Positions 13,001 to 46,190 of a stretch of DNA of 64,000 bases are shown here, in pieces. The notes under the pieces were generated by a model, which was given only the letters and a program-made list of their open reading frames with translations, searched no databases and was not told the DNA's origin. A program made the position numbers and the translations under genes. Every line of letters starts with the position of its first letter. Position 1 is the first letter of the stretch. The DNA comes from Streptomyces sp. QL37 (GTDB lineage: Bacteria > Actinomycetota > Actinomycetes > Streptomycetales > Streptomycetaceae), in assembly GCF_002941025.1 (NCBI RefSeq), contig NZ_PTJS01000001.1:7330605-7394604 (forward strand), read 5' to 3'.

Positions 13001-13151
13001 TCTCGCCCCTGGAAGGAGGGATTGTCGTACCGCCGTCAACAGTGCCGCAGGTCACAGACCTCCCAAGGGGCGAGACACGTGCCCCAATCACCGGAAGCGA
13101 CCGATAAACTGGTCGACGGAATGTGCCGGGCGCAGCTCCCGGAGTTCCGAC
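13001..13151 (+). promoter_or_regulatory. Structured 5' leader of metK
   Basis: Two hairpins are readable in the 239-bp gap before metK. A 12-bp stem with one bulged A pairs 13001-13012 with 13063-13075; its 50-nt loop contains a small hairpin (AGGTC/GACCT, 13049-13061). A second hairpin spans 13112-13151, with a CCGGG/CCCGG core and GGAA/TTCC outer pairs. The 3' side of the second hairpin includes a GGAG that could serve a short overlapping frame starting at ATG 13153. I could not match this to the SAM-I or SAM-IV riboswitch consensus. A regulatory role is inference. Confidence 0.5.
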
Positions 13152-13190
13152 AATGATCAGCCAGCAGCCGCTGCAACCCCAGGGAGCGAT

Positions 13191-19993: not shown

Positions 19994-20929
19994 TCAGCGC
20001 GGGCGGTCCCCGGCGACGGCGACACGTTCGGCCACCCTGCGGTGCGGGGCGTAGTCGTTCACCGCGTAGTGCTGCGTCGCCCGGTTGTCCCAGAACGCGA
20101 CGTCCCCCGCCCGCCAGGTGAAGCGCACCTGGTACTCCGGCACGTGCGCCTGCTGGAACAGCAGCCGCAGCATCCGGTCGCTCTCCTCCTGGTCCCAGCC
20201 CACGATCCGGGTGGTGAAGGAGGTGTTGACGAAGAGCATCCGGCGCCCGGTGGCCGGGTGCGTCCGCACCACGGGGTGCTCGACTGGCGGAAAGCGGTCC
20301 TGGAAGCGGACCAGCCGCTCCTCGGGGGTGAACCGCGCGAATCCCGGCACGAAGTCGTGCACCGCCCGCGCCCCCTCCAGGCGGGCCCTCACCTCCGGTG
20401 GAAGGTTGTCGTACGCGGCGGCCATGTCGGCCCACATCGTGTCGCCGCCGTACGGAGGCACCTCGCGCAGGTGGAGGACCGCCCCGAGCGCGGGCCGCTC
20501 GCGGAACGTCACATCGGTGTGCCAGACGTTCTCGAAGCTCGGCGCGGACGAGCGGTCGAACCGCGCCACCTCCGGATCGTCCCCGGCCGCCAGCAGCGGA
20601 TTGGTCTCCAGCTCGCCCCAGTTGCGGGCGAAGGCCCGCTGCTCGGCCGAGCTGGGGTGCTGCCCGCGGAAGAAGAGCACCTTCCACTCCAGCAGAGCCC
20701 GGTCGAGCTCCTCACGCACGGCGGGTGCGAGCGGACGGGTCAGGTCGACACCGCCGATCTCGGCCCCGATCACCGGGCCGAGCGGAACGACGTCGAACAG
20801 CGTATAGGGCCGGTCGGGCTGCCCCGGTGCCAGCCTGCGCAGCTCGCGGGGGCCTTCGTAAAGCCCGTCCGGGGGCAGCCGGGAGGTGCGCAGCGCGGCG
20901 ACGGAACCGATGGACGCGGTGAGGGACAT
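19994..20929 (-). CDS. TauD/TfdA-family Fe(II)/2-oxoglutarate dioxygenase
   Basis: A 311-residue non-heme iron dioxygenase. The iron ligands are His137 and Asp139 (NVWHTDVTF) and His287 (RATQHYAV), and the 2-oxoglutarate-binding Arg is probably in the APHRR segment near 297-298. It is the last gene of a leftward operon encoding a sulfonate-type ABC transporter, so it most likely releases sulfite (or sulfate) from taurine, another alkanesulfonate or an alkyl sulfate ester. The exact substrate cannot be told from motifs. The ATG at 20929 has AGGAG on its 5' side. Confidence 0.88.
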   Translation of the reverse strand: MSLTASIGSVAALRTSRLPPDGLYEGPRELRRLAPGQPDRPYTLFDVVPLGPVIGAEIGGVDLTRPLAPAVREELDRALLEWKVLFFRGQHPSSAEQRAFARNWGELETNPLLAAGDDPEVARFDRSSAPSFENVWHTDVTFRERPALGAVLHLREVPPYGGDTMWADMAAAYDNLPPEVRARLEGARAVHDFVPGFARFTPEERLVRFQDRFPPVEHPVVRTHPATGRRMLFVNTSFTTRIVGWDQEESDRMLRLLFQQAHVPEYQVRFTWRAGDVAFWDNRATQHYAVNDYAPHRRVAERVAVAGDRPR

Positions 20930-20994: not shown

Positions 20995-21831
20995 TCAGCG
21001 GGCCGCGTCGCGTACCGCCGCTCCGATCTCGGCGCGCAACGCGGCGTACCCGGGCAGCCCCCGCAGCCCGTCCGGATCGTCGTCCCCGGTGCGGGGCAGG
21101 GGGATCGGGACGTCCAGTGCGACCTTGCCCGGCCCGGCGCTCAGGACGACCGCACGGGTGCCGAGGAAGACGGCCTCGTCCACGCTGTGCGTGACGAAGA
21201 CCGAGGTGATGCCCGTACGGGCGCTCACCGTGCGCAGATCCTCCTGGAGCCGCTCACGGGTGAGCGCGTCCAGGGCGGCGAACGGCTCGTCCAGCAGCAG
21301 CAGATCCTTGCCGCCGGCCAGCGCCCGTGCGATGGCGACCCGCTGCTGCTGGCCCCCCGATATCTGCCAGGTCCTGCGCCGAGCGGTGCCGGCCAGCCCG
21401 ACCCGCTCCAGCAACTCCTCGACACGTGAGGACCGTTCGGCCCGGGGGACTCCGGCGTAGCGCAGCGCCAGGGAGATGTTCTCGCCGACGGTGCGCCAGG
21501 GGAACAGCCTCGGCTGCTGGAAGACGACTCCCGCCTGACGTCCGGGTTCGGGCGTCCGGCCGTGCACGGTGACGTCGCCCTGGGAGGCGTGCTCGAAGCC
21601 GGCGATCAGCCGCAGCAACGTGCTCTTCCCGCTCCCGGACGGACCGACGAGCACCAGGAACTCCCCGGCCGGGATGTCGAGCGACAGCGGGCCGAGGGCC
21701 GTCACGGCGTCAGCGCCGCGACCGTAGCGGTGGGTCACCTCGCGCACGGCCACGGCGGGTGCGAGGGCCGCCGCACCGGCTCCCCCGGGGCTGTCCCGGG
21801 GGTCGGTCCGGTGGTCATTCGGAGACGGCAT
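20995..21831 (-). CDS. ABC transporter ATP-binding protein, sulfonate/taurine type
   Basis: The energising subunit of the importer (SsuB/TauB type), 278 residues. Walker A is GPSGSGKST (residues 63-71), the signature ISGGQQQR starts at 157 and Walker B LLLLDEP is at 177-183. The first ~25 residues are low-complexity. The start lies 17 nt inside the 3' end of the binding-protein gene, indicating translational coupling. The dioxygenase gene follows 65 bp downstream. Confidence 0.92.
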   Translation of the reverse strand: MPSPNDHRTDPRDSPGGAGAAALAPAVAVREVTHRYGRGADAVTALGPLSLDIPAGEFLVLVGPSGSGKSTLLRLIAGFEHASQGDVTVHGRTPEPGRQAGVVFQQPRLFPWRTVGENISLALRYAGVPRAERSSRVEELLERVGLAGTARRRTWQISGGQQQRVAIARALAGGKDLLLLDEPFAALDALTRERLQEDLRTVSARTGITSVFVTHSVDEAVFLGTRAVVLSAGPGKVALDVPIPLPRTGDDDPDGLRGLPGYAALRAEIGAAVRDAAR

Positions 21832-22870
21832 CGCTGAGCCCCTCGACGTACACGGCCTTCTCCAGTTCGGAGAGCTCGGGTGCGGCCGGAATCTGCTTCT
21901 GCCCGGCCAGGAACTCCGCCGCGCTCCGCAGGTTCTGCGCCAGGTCGCCGACCTGGCCCGGGCGGCCGAGCCACTTGTCGTCGGCCTGTTCGGCCGGCTT
22001 GAGGAAGATGCCCTGCTTCAGCTGGGCGGCGGCCTCCCGGGGACTGGTCCCGAGCTGCTTGCCCACGGCCTCGGCGGCTGCCGACGGGTCGTCATGGATC
22101 AGGTCCAGCGCCTGTGCCTGGGCCTTGCGCCAGGCGGCGATGACCTCGGGCTGCTTCTCGATGAAGGCGGTGGAGGCCACCCCCAGGTCGAGCGTGGGCT
22201 TGCCCGACGCGGCCAGTTCCCGGCTGGTGAGCAGGGTCTTGCCGGTCTTCCCGAGCTCGTCGAGCGTCGGGAGCCAGACGTAGGCGGCGTCGATGTCCCC
22301 GCGGGACCAGGCCGCGACGATGTCCTGGGGTTCGAGGTCGAGCAGATCGACCTTCGACGCGTCCACGCCCGCCTTGTCGAGCGCGGCGAGCAGGCTGTAG
22401 TGGGAGGTGGAGCTGAAGGGTGTGGCGACCTTCCGGCCCGCGAGATCCTCGACGCCCTTGATACCGGAGCCGTCACGGGCCACCAACGCCTCGTTGTCAC
22501 CGGCGACATCCAGCACCCAGGTGACCTTGTACGGGATGTTCAGCGGCGCTGACAGACCGCGCGCCACCGGACTGGAGCCGATCGCGGCCAGATCGACCGA
22601 GCCCGCGACGAAGGCCGTGTTGATGGTCGCGCCGGAGTCGAATTTGATCCACTTGATCGTGTGGTCCGGAAGGGCCTTCTCCAACAGGCCCTTCTCCTTC
22701 ACGATCAAGTCACCGCTGGGGAAGGCCTGGTAGCCGATCCGTATCGTTCTGCCGCCGCCCTGGTCGTCACCGCCTCCGTCACCGCCGCCACCGCAGGCGG
22801 TGACGACGACGAGTGCTCCCAGAGCCGCGACGAGCGTGGAGGTGCGGCGCGGGCCGCGTGTTCCGGGCAT
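21815..22870 (-). CDS. Sulfonate/taurine ABC transporter substrate-binding lipoprotein
   Basis: A 351-residue extracytoplasmic binding protein. The signal sequence ends in a lipobox (VTACG, lipidated Cys26) followed by a Gly/Asp-rich linker. The mature domain has the SsuA/TauA/NMT1 pattern (IRIGYQAFPSGDLIVKEKGL, then FVAGSVDLAAIGSSP). The ATG at 22870 has AAGGA 8 nt upstream. It sits between the permease and ATPase genes. Taurine or another aliphatic sulfonate is the likely ligand, supported by the TauD-like gene in the operon. Confidence 0.92.
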   Translation of the reverse strand: MPGTRGPRRTSTLVAALGALVVVTACGGGGDGGGDDQGGGRTIRIGYQAFPSGDLIVKEKGLLEKALPDHTIKWIKFDSGATINTAFVAGSVDLAAIGSSPVARGLSAPLNIPYKVTWVLDVAGDNEALVARDGSGIKGVEDLAGRKVATPFSSTSHYSLLAALDKAGVDASKVDLLDLEPQDIVAAWSRGDIDAAYVWLPTLDELGKTGKTLLTSRELAASGKPTLDLGVASTAFIEKQPEVIAAWRKAQAQALDLIHDDPSAAAEAVGKQLGTSPREAAAQLKQGIFLKPAEQADDKWLGRPGQVGDLAQNLRSAAEFLAGQKQIPAAPELSELEKAVYVEGLSDAVSE

Positions 22871-22941: not shown

Positions 22942-23826
22942 TCACGACAGCCGCCGCCAGGGCGCGAGCCGGTTCTCGGCACCCCGCAGCAGGGCGTCGA
23001 TCAGCAGGCCGGAGACACCGATCGCGAAGAGTCCGAGGACGACCACGTCGGACTGGTTGTAGCGCTGGGCGTCGCGGATCATGCCGCCGATGCCGGGCAG
23101 CCCGTTGACGGTCTCCGCGGCGACCACCGAGGAGTACGCGATCCCGAACGCCAGCCGTACGCCCACGAGGATCTCCGGCAGCGCGGACGGCAGGACGACG
23201 GAGGCCACCACCTGGGAGCGGCGTGCCCCGATGGCCCGTGCGGCCTCCACCAGCGAGGCGGGCGCGGAGGCGACGGCCGACGCGGTGGCCACGGCCACGG
23301 GCGGCATGGCGGCGATCGCCAGCAGCCACAGCTTGGGCGCCTCGTCGATGCCGAACCAGATGATCAGCAGGCTGAAGTAGGCGAGCGGCGGCAGGGTCCG
23401 GAGAAAGGCCACCGCCGGTTCGAACACCACCCTCACCCACGGCAGCGTGCCCATCAGGACACCGGCCACCAGCCCTGCCAGGACCCCCGCGCCCGCACCG
23501 ATCGCGATCCGGCGCAGGCTGATGCCCAGATGCTCGACCAAGGTGTGGCCCTGATAGCCCCGCACCCCGTCATGGGTGCCCGACGTCTCGACGAGCGCGT
23601 CCCAGACGGCCGACGGCGGCGGTACCAGCACCGGGGACCACAACCGCAGAGCCGTGACGAGCTGCCAGAGGGCGAGCAGCACGACCAGCGCGAGCAGCCG
23701 CAGTCCCGCCCTGCGCAGCCGCGCGGCCCGCTCCGGTGAGCGGCGGCGCGCAGGGGGAGCGGGAGCGGGTTCACCGGGGAGCGCCGGGCCGGACGGCTGC
23801 TTCTCCGTGGTGGTGGGCGTGGTCAT
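22942..23826 (-). CDS. Sulfonate/taurine ABC transporter permease
   Basis: An SsuC/TauC-type inner membrane subunit, 294 residues from the ATG at 23826. A charged N-terminal tail of ~35 residues is followed by about six transmembrane helices; the EAA loop that contacts the ATPase reads EAARAIGARRSQVVASVVLP. The start was chosen because CGGAG precedes it with a suitable spacer. It is the first full-size gene of the operon. A leader-peptide gene ends 276 nt upstream. Confidence 0.9.
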   Translation of the reverse strand: MTTPTTTEKQPSGPALPGEPAPAPPARRRSPERAARLRRAGLRLLALVVLLALWQLVTALRLWSPVLVPPPSAVWDALVETSGTHDGVRGYQGHTLVEHLGISLRRIAIGAGAGVLAGLVAGVLMGTLPWVRVVFEPAVAFLRTLPPLAYFSLLIIWFGIDEAPKLWLLAIAAMPPVAVATASAVASAPASLVEAARAIGARRSQVVASVVLPSALPEILVGVRLAFGIAYSSVVAAETVNGLPGIGGMIRDAQRYNQSDVVVLGLFAIGVSGLLIDALLRGAENRLAPWRRLS

Positions 23827-24102
23827 GGCGGACTCCGTCGGGAGGGGTGCCGCGGACGCAGCGCCGCCGGCCGGGCGGACAGGGCCGGGCAGCGGGATGC
23901 GGGGCGCGGAGGGCCGCGCCCGCGGCAACGGGGGAGGGGCCCGCGGAACCGACGGGCCGGTGCGCCGTACACGGACGGAGACGTCCGGTCCGGCTCACGG
24001 ACGGGGTTCTGCGGGATGGTGCCGGCTCACCCGAGGGGCGGCCGGAAGGCGGGCGGACGACGCCGCACAGTTCTGGAAGCGCTCAGCGCTGCCGGGCCAG
24101 GC

Positions 24103-24174
24103 TCAACAGGAGCAGCTGGTCACACGGCAGAGATCGATGCTGAGGCGCTCCTTCAGGAACTGGTCGCTGATCAC
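24103..24174 (-). CDS. Cysteine-containing leader peptide upstream of the sulfonate operon
   Basis: A 23-codon frame starting with GTG and reading MISDQFLKERLSIDLCRVTS followed by CSC, then stop. Three Cys codons occur in the last eight codons. Actinobacterial leader peptides of the type R-L-x-(I/V)-D-L-x-R-V-x-S-x-x-C are found upstream of sulfur-assimilation and sulfonate genes, and polycysteine leaderless ORFs in mycobacteria act as cysteine-responsive attenuators. No Shine-Dalgarno is visible, but a -10-like TAGAAA sits 6 nt before the G of the GTG, so leaderless translation is likely. It precedes the permease by 276 nt in the same direction. Confidence 0.72.
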   Translation of the reverse strand: MISDQFLKERLSIDLCRVTSCSC

Positions 24175-24180
24175 GGGGAT

Positions 24181-24210
24181 TTTCTAACACAGCCGCATGG
24201 CGGGCACCAG
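24181..24210 (-). promoter_or_regulatory. Putative promoter of the sulfonate operon
   Basis: On the minus strand, TAGAAA (24181-24186) resembles a -10 box and CTGGTG (24205-24210) a weak -35, with an 18-nt spacer. The expected start point falls on the GTG of the leader peptide at 24174, which fits a leaderless transcript. Confidence 0.45.
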
Positions 24211-24369
24211 GGGCTGTCCGCGCCCTGGTACGGACCGGGGCGCCCGGGGCGGTCCCTCCGTCCACAGGGTCCGCAGAAAAGCCGCGAAAGCACGAACCGT
24301 GATGATCCCGTGAGGCTTTGAGGCGCACCGAGGCAGGGAAGTGACGTCGGGCATGGCAGGCTTGGGTGC

Positions 24370-25053
24370 ATGGCCCAGATCAACCCCAGCATCCTGTCCG
24401 CCGACTTCGCCCGTCTCGCCGAGGAGGCGAAGGCCGTGGAAGGCGCCGACTGGCTCCATGTAGATGTCATGGACAACCATTTCGTGCCCAACCTGACCCT
24501 CGGTGTGCCCATCGTGGAGGCGCTGAGCAAGGCGACGGACACCCCGCTGGACTGCCACCTGATGATCGAGAACGCGGACCGGTGGGCTCCGCAGTACGTC
24601 GAGGCCGGTGCGGGCTCGGTCACCTTCCACGCGGAGGCCGCGGCGGCGCCCGTGAGGCTGGCCCGGGAGATCAGGGCGAAGGGCGCCCGCGCCTCCATGG
24701 CGCTCAAGCCCGCAACGCCCATCGAGCCGTACGAGGACCTGCTCCCCGAGCTCGACATGCTGCTGATCATGACGGTGGAGCCCGGCTTCGGCGGCCAGGC
24801 GTTCCTGGACATCATGCTGCCGAAGATCCGCCGTACGCGTGAGCTGATCTCCAAGCACGGCCTGGAGCTGTGGCTCCAGGTCGACGGCGGCGTCTCGGCC
24901 ACGACCATCGAGCGGTGCGCCGAGGCCGGCGCGGATGTCTTCGTCGCCGGCTCGGCGGTGTACGGGGCCGAGGACCCGGCCGAAGCGGTGCGAGCGCTGC
25001 GCTCACAGGCGGACACGGCCACCGCTTCCGCGCCCTGGGCGTGCGGCCACTGA
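24370..25053 (+). CDS. rpe: Ribulose-phosphate 3-epimerase
   Basis: Interconverts ribulose-5-phosphate and xylulose-5-phosphate in the pentose phosphate pathway. The 227-residue TIM-barrel protein shows the N-terminal [13 protein letters not shown], the metal-binding [16 protein letters not shown], the phosphate-binding [14 protein letters not shown] and [10 protein letters not shown]. Its substrate is also the precursor used by RibBA further along the window. It stands alone, followed by a SorC-family regulator. Confidence 0.97.
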
Positions 25054-45931: not shown

Positions 45932-46054
45932 AGCCGTCGGGCCCGGCCCGGTCACTGTTCCCGCAGTCGCCCCCACGCTCTGTGACCCGTCCCACAGAAG
46001 TCACCCGGATGGACCGTTGCGTGACGTGGCACAATGATCCTGTACCAGCAGCAG

Positions 46055-46190
46055 CGCACTCCGGGGTCGGTGTAATTCCGAACCGGCGGTTATAGTCCGC
46101 GACCCGTCCGCATCCAGCGGCCGGTTGACCAGGTGAGATTCCTGGACCGACGGTGAAAGTCCGGATGGGAGGCAGTGCGCGGCGGGCCGT
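46055..46190 (+). ncRNA. FMN riboswitch (RFN element)
   Basis: The conserved RFN segments are present in order: TAATTCCGAACCGGCGGT (46073-46090), ATAGTCCGCGACCC, then GTGAGATTCCTGGACCGACG and GTGAAAGTCCGGATGGGAG (to about 46172). It lies about 150 nt upstream of the ribD start. Binding of FMN should shut down the rib operon; in GC-rich actinobacteria this is thought to act mainly by hiding the ribosome site. The exact ends are approximate. Confidence 0.93.

Follow-up and report, generated by a model that had tools for sequence, protein, structure and literature searches.

A conserved short ORF with an invariantly spelled UGU cysteine codon is a probable cysteine-responsive leader of a taurine/sulfonate-type operon in Streptomyces

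Ahead of an operon of the taurine/sulfonate type, the 8.78-Mb genome of Streptomyces sp. QL37 carries a short ORF of which the peptide, the place in front of this operon and of other sulfur genes, and the distance between a D-L-x-R core and the last Cys codon are all conserved, and in every family member found this Cys codon is spelled UGU. We consider it probable that the ORF is a leaderless cysteine-responsive leader of the operon, in which a motif of the nascent chain and a single, wobble-read UGU codon together form the sensor. The usual explanation of leader attenuators invokes runs of the sensed codon, whereas here there would be a single codon, in its rarer synonymous form, held at a fixed distance from a motif. 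If this is correct, a natural amino acid sensor would have codon identity and 3' context among its components that can be measured, sulfonate scavenging and cysteine synthesis would be controlled in common, and the sensing step, depending on one invariant wobble codon, could be tested by comparing UGU with UGC. An initial annotation of the window (the whole stretch of 64,000 nucleotides analyzed here) had proposed a cysteine attenuator; of that interpretation the cysteine leader is supported, but not the action of three Cys codons or a recognizable attenuating structure, and the invariant UGU spelling is absent from it.

The leader ORF and the downstream operon

The features of the locus are collected in Table 1. 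As the initial annotation had indicated, a GTG-started frame of 23 codons, three of them Cys codons, lies upstream of the permease gene on the minus strand (24174 to 24103), and no Shine-Dalgarno sequence is seen before its GTG. The encoded peptide, V(M)ISDQFLKERLSIDLCRVTSCSC followed by a stop, terminates in RLSIDLCRVTSCSC, and its Cys codons are C16 (TGC, 24129-24127), C21 (TGC, 24114-24112) and C23 (TGT, 24108-24106). Between the end of the stop codon (24103) and the permease ATG (23826) lies a spacer of 276 nt. Judged from its sequence, the ORF looks like a cysteine-responsive leader of the taurine/sulfonate operon.

Table 1. Features of the leader, its presumed promoter and the operon downstream.
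Feature	Position in the window	Strand	Remarks
-35-like hexamer CTGGTG	24205..24210	minus	18 nt before the -10; not the TTGAC consensus
-10-like hexamer TAGAAA	24181..24186	minus	6 nt before GTG; without the final T of TAnnnT
Leader peptide ORF MISDQFLKERLSIDLCRVTSCSC, stop	24103..24174	minus	GTG start, 23 codons; NCBIfam NF042934 E=2.1e-5; conserved in 31/32 distinct Streptomyces loci fetched
Nascent-peptide motif R-L-S-I-D-L-C-R	24124..24147	minus	D, L, R and the Cys at R+6 invariant in an alignment of 17 peptides
Putative sensor codon UGU (Cys at R+6), then UGA stop	24106..24108	minus	UGU in 189/189 family hits
Untranslated spacer, 276 nt	23827..24102	minus	C 0.47, G 0.33; no U-run terminator
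GGAG ribosome site of the permease	23833..23836	minus	From the sequence; modelled accessibility 0.52 with and without a stalled ribosome
TauC/SsuC-type ABC permease	22942..23826	minus	NF007545 E=1.7e-56, below curated cut-off; PF00528
TauA-type substrate-binding lipoprotein	21815..22870	minus	TIGR01729 E=2.2e-70, 237 bits against a cut-off of 304
TauB/SsuB-type ABC ATPase	20995..21831	minus	NF008421 E=6.7e-65, below curated cut-off
TauD-type alpha-ketoglutarate dioxygenase	19994..20929	minus	NF007104 E=5.3e-86, 288 bits against 313; PF02668 E=4.1e-69

All four operon genes have a taurine model as their best NCBIfam match, and because each of these matches falls under the curated cut-off, taurine is a candidate for the exact substrate of the operon. 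Divergent from the leader, a gene on the plus strand (24370-25053) resembles by eye ribulose-phosphate 3-epimerase, so that the promoter region is common to this gene and the leader.

Conservation of the leader at the operon front

Homologous loci were fetched by means of the permease, taking the best 80 of at least 424 confirmed relatives (among these 80, the nearest are from Streptomyces) together with 21 loci of the genus, in which only 21 of 150 genomes have the permease at an E-value of 1e-60. Removal of six duplicate copies from the resulting 101 loci, the window's own included, left 95 distinct ones. The initial annotation had proposed searching homologous operons for the peptide, and this search found it kept at the operon front in 31 of the 32 distinct Streptomyces loci fetched (window included), directly before the permease in 25 cases and before an extra upstream gene in six. 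In these six loci the leader lies 1.3-1.4 kb upstream of the permease, and the intervening gene matched alkanesulfonate monooxygenase models, below the cut-offs, in the two loci tested. The sole fetched Streptomyces permease locus lacking a leader at the front (L128/L192) has none in 4.5 kb around its upstream side. Among the 63 loci of other genera only four have the leader, all of them from Microbispora. Over all 95 loci, the leader directly precedes the permease in 29.

Chance occurrence was gauged by scanning both strands of the 95 loci (1,787,764 bases over the two strands) for the pattern [IVM]DLxR-x4-6-C-x0-12-stop, which gave 36 matches, 35 of them in sense at the operon front upstream of the permease and one on the opposite strand. 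When the Cys requirement was dropped for the 1000 nt upstream, extra matches appeared only in L094 (a dubious frame of 15 amino acids) and L114 (a copy already counted). This conservation, together with the family motif R-L-x-(I/V)-D-L-x-R-V, supports a real conserved cysteine leader before the taurine/sulfonate operon. The match on the opposite strand (L110, from Nonomuraea solani) is a family leader, MIHGLLLTTRPHVDLVRVASAQCR, that lies near the permease and apparently serves another gene.

A family of leaders associated with sulfur genes

The leader peptide matches the NCBIfam model NF042934 ('putative leader peptide', cis_reg_atten) with an E-value of 2.1e-5, profile positions 6-19 of 19 being aligned. 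Since its score of 24.0 bits is under the curated cut-off of 27, the peptide is to be regarded as homologous to NF042934 and not as a formal member. Ten tau leaders were compared with this cut-off, which four pass (S. silvae, 29.7 bits; NBS 14/10, 35.8; S. hainanensis, 28.8; Microbispora, 32.9) and six fail, one of these without any match. Two traits of the family are present in the window leader, namely (V/I)-D-L-x-R with a Cys six residues on, and a short ORF just upstream of genes, in this case sulfur genes. Homology to the mycobacterial leader models Ms5788A and Ms4527A is weak and below cut-off. At an E-value of 0.001, NF042934 matches all 31 genomes sampled from the genus, 89 of 118 sampled from the class and no genome among 14 controls.

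In the strain's own genome, NF042934 finds nine places over the cut-off and 14 with an E-value below 0.01, the window leader included. Taking the next gene within 1.5 kb, seven of the 14 precede genes of clear sulfur function: a sulfatase, a gene that is ThiS/MoaD-like by eye and followed by cysteine synthase, a cysteine dioxygenase, an SsuD-like monooxygenase, a nitrite/sulfite reductase, a rhodanese and the tau operon itself. Four more have plausible neighbors (a second luciferase-type monooxygenase, an SDF symporter, a flavin reductase and an SBP_bac_5 protein), and the remaining three no clear sulfur role: L011 (no Pfam match), L016 (acetyltransferase) and L022 (ROK family). Consistent with the initial annotation, which had pointed to R-L-x-(I/V)-D-L-x-R-V peptides upstream of sulfur genes in actinobacteria, the motif is shared with homologous leaders, some of them before sulfur genes in the same genome. 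Two of the 14 places, L013 (C1:298861-298914, minus strand) and L016 (299270-299323, plus strand), are neighbors at a distance of about 0.4 kb, back to back and facing away from each other.

The conserved Cys codon is spelled UGU

Seventeen peptides were aligned, representing six tau types and 11 of the 13 other own-genome places (L013 and L016 were left out), and the only invariant residues are D14, L15, R17 and C23 in the numbering of the window leader. The conserved Cys thus stands six residues after the conserved Arg (D-L-x-R-x5-C), a position designated R+6 here. C16 and C21 are not conserved in this alignment, and the notion that three Cys codons act together finds no support, given that the last Cys alone is conserved.

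The spelling of this codon was followed in the 14 own-genome places, 35 tau leaders (the window's own being included again) and 137 additional loci retrieved with the amino-acid model, a wide set that was taken among the best matches listed and so leans to high-scoring leaders. The motif scan gave 188 hits, of which two spurious ones in L149 were dropped, and the remaining 186 all have TGT at R+6; three loci that escaped the scan, with D-F or D-N instead of D-L, show TGT as well, followed by C. In total, TGT occupies R+6 in 189 of 189 hits. With double counts removed (the window's own leader, and two places in L154/L221), the hits represent 186 distinct places; the number of distinct 80-nt sequences is 184, as three loci share one identical core. 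The own-genome places alone have TGT at 14 out of 14. The base after UGU is a pyrimidine at 183 of the 186 distinct places, and the 184 distinct sequences have C (131), T (50) or A (3) there.

These frequencies differ from the background, since in 40 predicted genes of the window TGT is the rarer spelling (17 of 134 Cys codons, 13%) and 39% of codons start with a pyrimidine. Other in-frame Cys codons of the same hits are TGC in 207 cases and TGT in 43 (43/250); TGT is common at R+7 (10/24), at R+5 (5/9) and at the other Cys positions of the second tau type (9/14, six leaders), and rare at R-1 (4/91) and R+4 (6/60). P values for the UGU excess, as for the spacer skew and the own-genome comparison described below, ignore the relatedness of the sequences. 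At 183 unique sites, where D, L and R were required by the search expression, Asp is encoded by GAC (127) or GAT (56), Leu by CTG (108), CTC (72) or other codons (3) and Arg by five codons. Because D, L and R vary synonymously while R+6 stays UGU, the constraint falls on the peptide plus one specific codon. UGU and UGC would both be read by one tRNA, with anticodon GCA, which would decode UGU by wobble, and a 3' pyrimidine would provide a weak codon context.

Promoter and start of translation

The initial annotation had placed the transcription start on the GTG itself on account of a -10-like box. This proposal stands in so far as TAGAAA lies 6 nt before the GTG and similar boxes, TA(A/C/G)AAN 6-8 nt before the start codon, occur in 24 of the 29 distinct tau leaders directly before a permease, with CTGGTG or TTGGTG in 22 of the 29; it is not backed by either of two scans for promoters at this leader. 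A generic sigma-70 consensus scan found no promoter at the window leader, and neither did a stricter family scan for the -10 nAnnnT 5-8 nt before an in-frame ATG or GTG plus a -35 (score at least 6 of 9), because the -10 here is TAGAAA. The stricter scan is passed by 88 of 186 hits as against 1 of 372 out-of-frame controls; L011, L012 and L013 score none in it either. A strict TAnnnT leaderless scan was positive in 1 of the 101 loci, most tau promoters being of the form TA(A/C/G)AAN. For S. lividans, passages of PMC8079986 give 17% leaderless transcripts, and leaderless promoters of the form TAnnnT with the final T in 97.4% and a mean distance of 6.3 nt. On balance, the transcript of the window leader is probably leaderless.

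A C-rich spacer and the proposed mode of control

The spacer between leader and permease has a C/G ratio of 1.46, a value that is reached by about 2% of 276-nt windows on both strands. C exceeds G in the spacers of all 29 tau leaders, with a mean C-over-G skew of 0.225, compared with 0.076 ahead of the corresponding gene in 60 loci, of mixed genera, that lack a leader. Likewise, the 11 of 14 own-genome leaders for which the gene start could be placed all have C/G of at least 1.4, a ratio that 3 of the window's 22 other 5' regions reach, whole spacers being compared with the last 200 nt or less of the other regions; some of these other regions are equally C-rich. Shared C-rich, G-poor spacers fit an exit of the Rho type, for which Rho is a candidate factor.

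We postulate that RNA polymerase would start at or next to the GTG and that translation of the leader would follow immediately. Once the motif R-x-x-(I/V)-D-L-x-R occupied the upper exit tunnel, the Cys codon at R+6 would become the rate-limiting one to decode, so that the ribosome would stall at UGU when Cys-tRNA is scarce, and would get to the stop codon and leave when Cys-tRNA is plentiful. The stall would turn the downstream genes on, probably by shielding the C-rich spacer from Rho, and release of the ribosome would expose the Rho loading site. One relative does not fit simple starvation induction, since the leader L012 of the same genome (C1:6149848-6149904), in which UGU is kept, lies about 40 nt (the gene start being uncertain) before a gene for cysteine dioxygenase, an enzyme that consumes cysteine.

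Alternative explanations

A different possibility is a translational attenuator of the mycobacterial polycysteine type, in which a stall on the Cys codons opens a hidden ribosome site of the first gene. The peptide motif is shared with the Ms5788A models, and cysteine genes of M. smegmatis are subject to translational attenuation, as cited in passages of PMC13236596. However, the window leader has no Cys tract and only one conserved Cys, and modelling of the ribosome sites points the other way. Sequestration of the permease site was rejected in a thermodynamic model, its accessibility being 0.52 when free and 0.52 with a modelled stalled ribosome. Over 15 of 15 tau leaders, with gene starts assigned by a simple rule, the stalled ribosome shifts the modelled accessibility by at most 0.05, and the main pairing partners of the site lie at the Cys codons of the peptide in none of the 15. 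Ten own-genome relatives gave a modelled change above 0.1 in two cases, one up and one down. We regard this alternative as unlikely.

A classical transcription attenuator, in which terminator and antiterminator hairpins would alternate within the 276 nt of the spacer, seems to us quite doubtful. In its favor, leaders of the S. griseus type have, by eye, complementary GCATC and GATGC around the stop, and the 385-nt leader taken as a whole is more stably folded than its dinucleotide shuffles (z -3.67), so that a structure not recognized here is possible. Against it, no stem followed by a T run occurs in 24102-23827 (U-less kinds of terminator being possible), the one terminator-like site lies upstream of the promoter, and spacer sequence and length are not conserved beyond close relatives. 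A hairpin around the Cys codon that by eye seems to covary in tau leaders was rejected, as it scored 0.63 against 0.69 for shuffled sequences in 17 distinct tau leaders, and family-wide folding around UGU equals that of shuffled controls (mean MFE z -0.08; enclosing pair 0.658 versus 0.643). There is also no Rfam match in 23780-24260. The initial annotation had expected the 276-nt segment to hold the attenuating structure, and for a recognizable structure this is not supported: neither a U-run terminator, an Rfam match, a local hairpin above shuffles nor, in modelling, a freed ribosome site was found. Elsewhere in the window, Rfam has two matches, Streptomyces-metK RNA and FMN riboswitch, at 13070-13186 and 46052-46182.

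UGU-pyrimidine could also be an RNA element, contacted by a protein or the ribosome or engaged in pairing, instead of acting through decoding. Such an element would account for the constraint on the next base (a pyrimidine in 181 of 184 sequences), which the amino acid sequence does not explain, but no flanking bases exceed what the peptide demands, and hairpin enclosure of UGU is no greater than with shuffled downstream sequence; we judge this reading, too, to be rather improbable. That the peptide itself is the product, for example a metal- or thiol-binding microprotein, agrees with the conserved D, L, R and C residues, but leaves unexplained the invariant synonymous UGU and the variable tail after it, and the leader is repeated before several sulfur genes of the genome, which makes this a very remote alternative. 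A chance ORF, suggested by its shortness and by a score under the curated cut-off of the family, is refuted by conservation and position and has next to no probability.

Relation to known leaders

A leader stalling at UGU upstream of a Rho-sensitive region would recall tnaC of E. coli, where a nascent-peptide stall that senses free tryptophan lies beside a Rho-sensitive spacer. The window leader would share this arrangement, with Rho as the presumed factor, but it has no sequence relation to tnaC and would sense the shortage of an amino acid instead of free tryptophan. As for NF042934, its motif and Cys position are those of the window leader; being a model of amino acids, it is silent on the UGU codon.

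Leaderless polycysteine ORFs of mycobacteria were reportedly described as cysteine attenuators by Canestrari et al. in 2020, and their mode of attenuation is said to be a hidden ribosome site. Their models (NF042933, Ms5788A; NF042936, Ms4527A) resemble the window leader in the short ORF, which in the window leader is probably leaderless, the V-D-L-C-R motif and the association with sulfur genes, and three polycysteine leaders among the sequences examined also have UGU at R+6. They differ in their consecutive Cys tract, whereas the window leader has three dispersed Cys codons, one of them conserved, and in the hiding of the ribosome site, for which modelling of the window leader gave no support. 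Since the motif is shared but the Cys tract is missing, the window leader represents a variant. Mycobacterial polycysteine attenuation is cited as translation attenuation in passages of PMC13236596, and passages of PMC9094748 (eLife) describe the Cys codons as likely essential in six mycobacterial polycysteine ORFs, without discussing UGU versus UGC. With somewhat less than even confidence, we suggest that actinobacteria may have a cysteine response covering many operons, with one wobble-read UGU codon before a pyrimidine in each leader and without a Cys tract. The motif, at its fixed distance, would prime the ribosome, even a slight drop in Cys-tRNA would then arrest translation, and the mycobacterial polycysteine leaders would be an elaboration of this single-codon sensor.

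In the literature covered, which included few subscription journals, we found nothing on the motif, on the choice of UGU or on a leader of a Streptomyces taurine operon, and a prior description is possible. Leaders of Streptomyces (leuL, trpL, ilvL and others) are described in passages of PMC8079986 as short, mostly leaderless and upstream of metabolic genes, and the eight listed there, for Leu, Trp, Ala, Ile, Met and Thr, differ from the window leader in that none has its motif. According to the same passages, the 'methionine' leader metL of S. lividans, which precedes metNIQ, ends in ARCMCRRMCAF with three Cys residues, and it may respond to cysteine as well.
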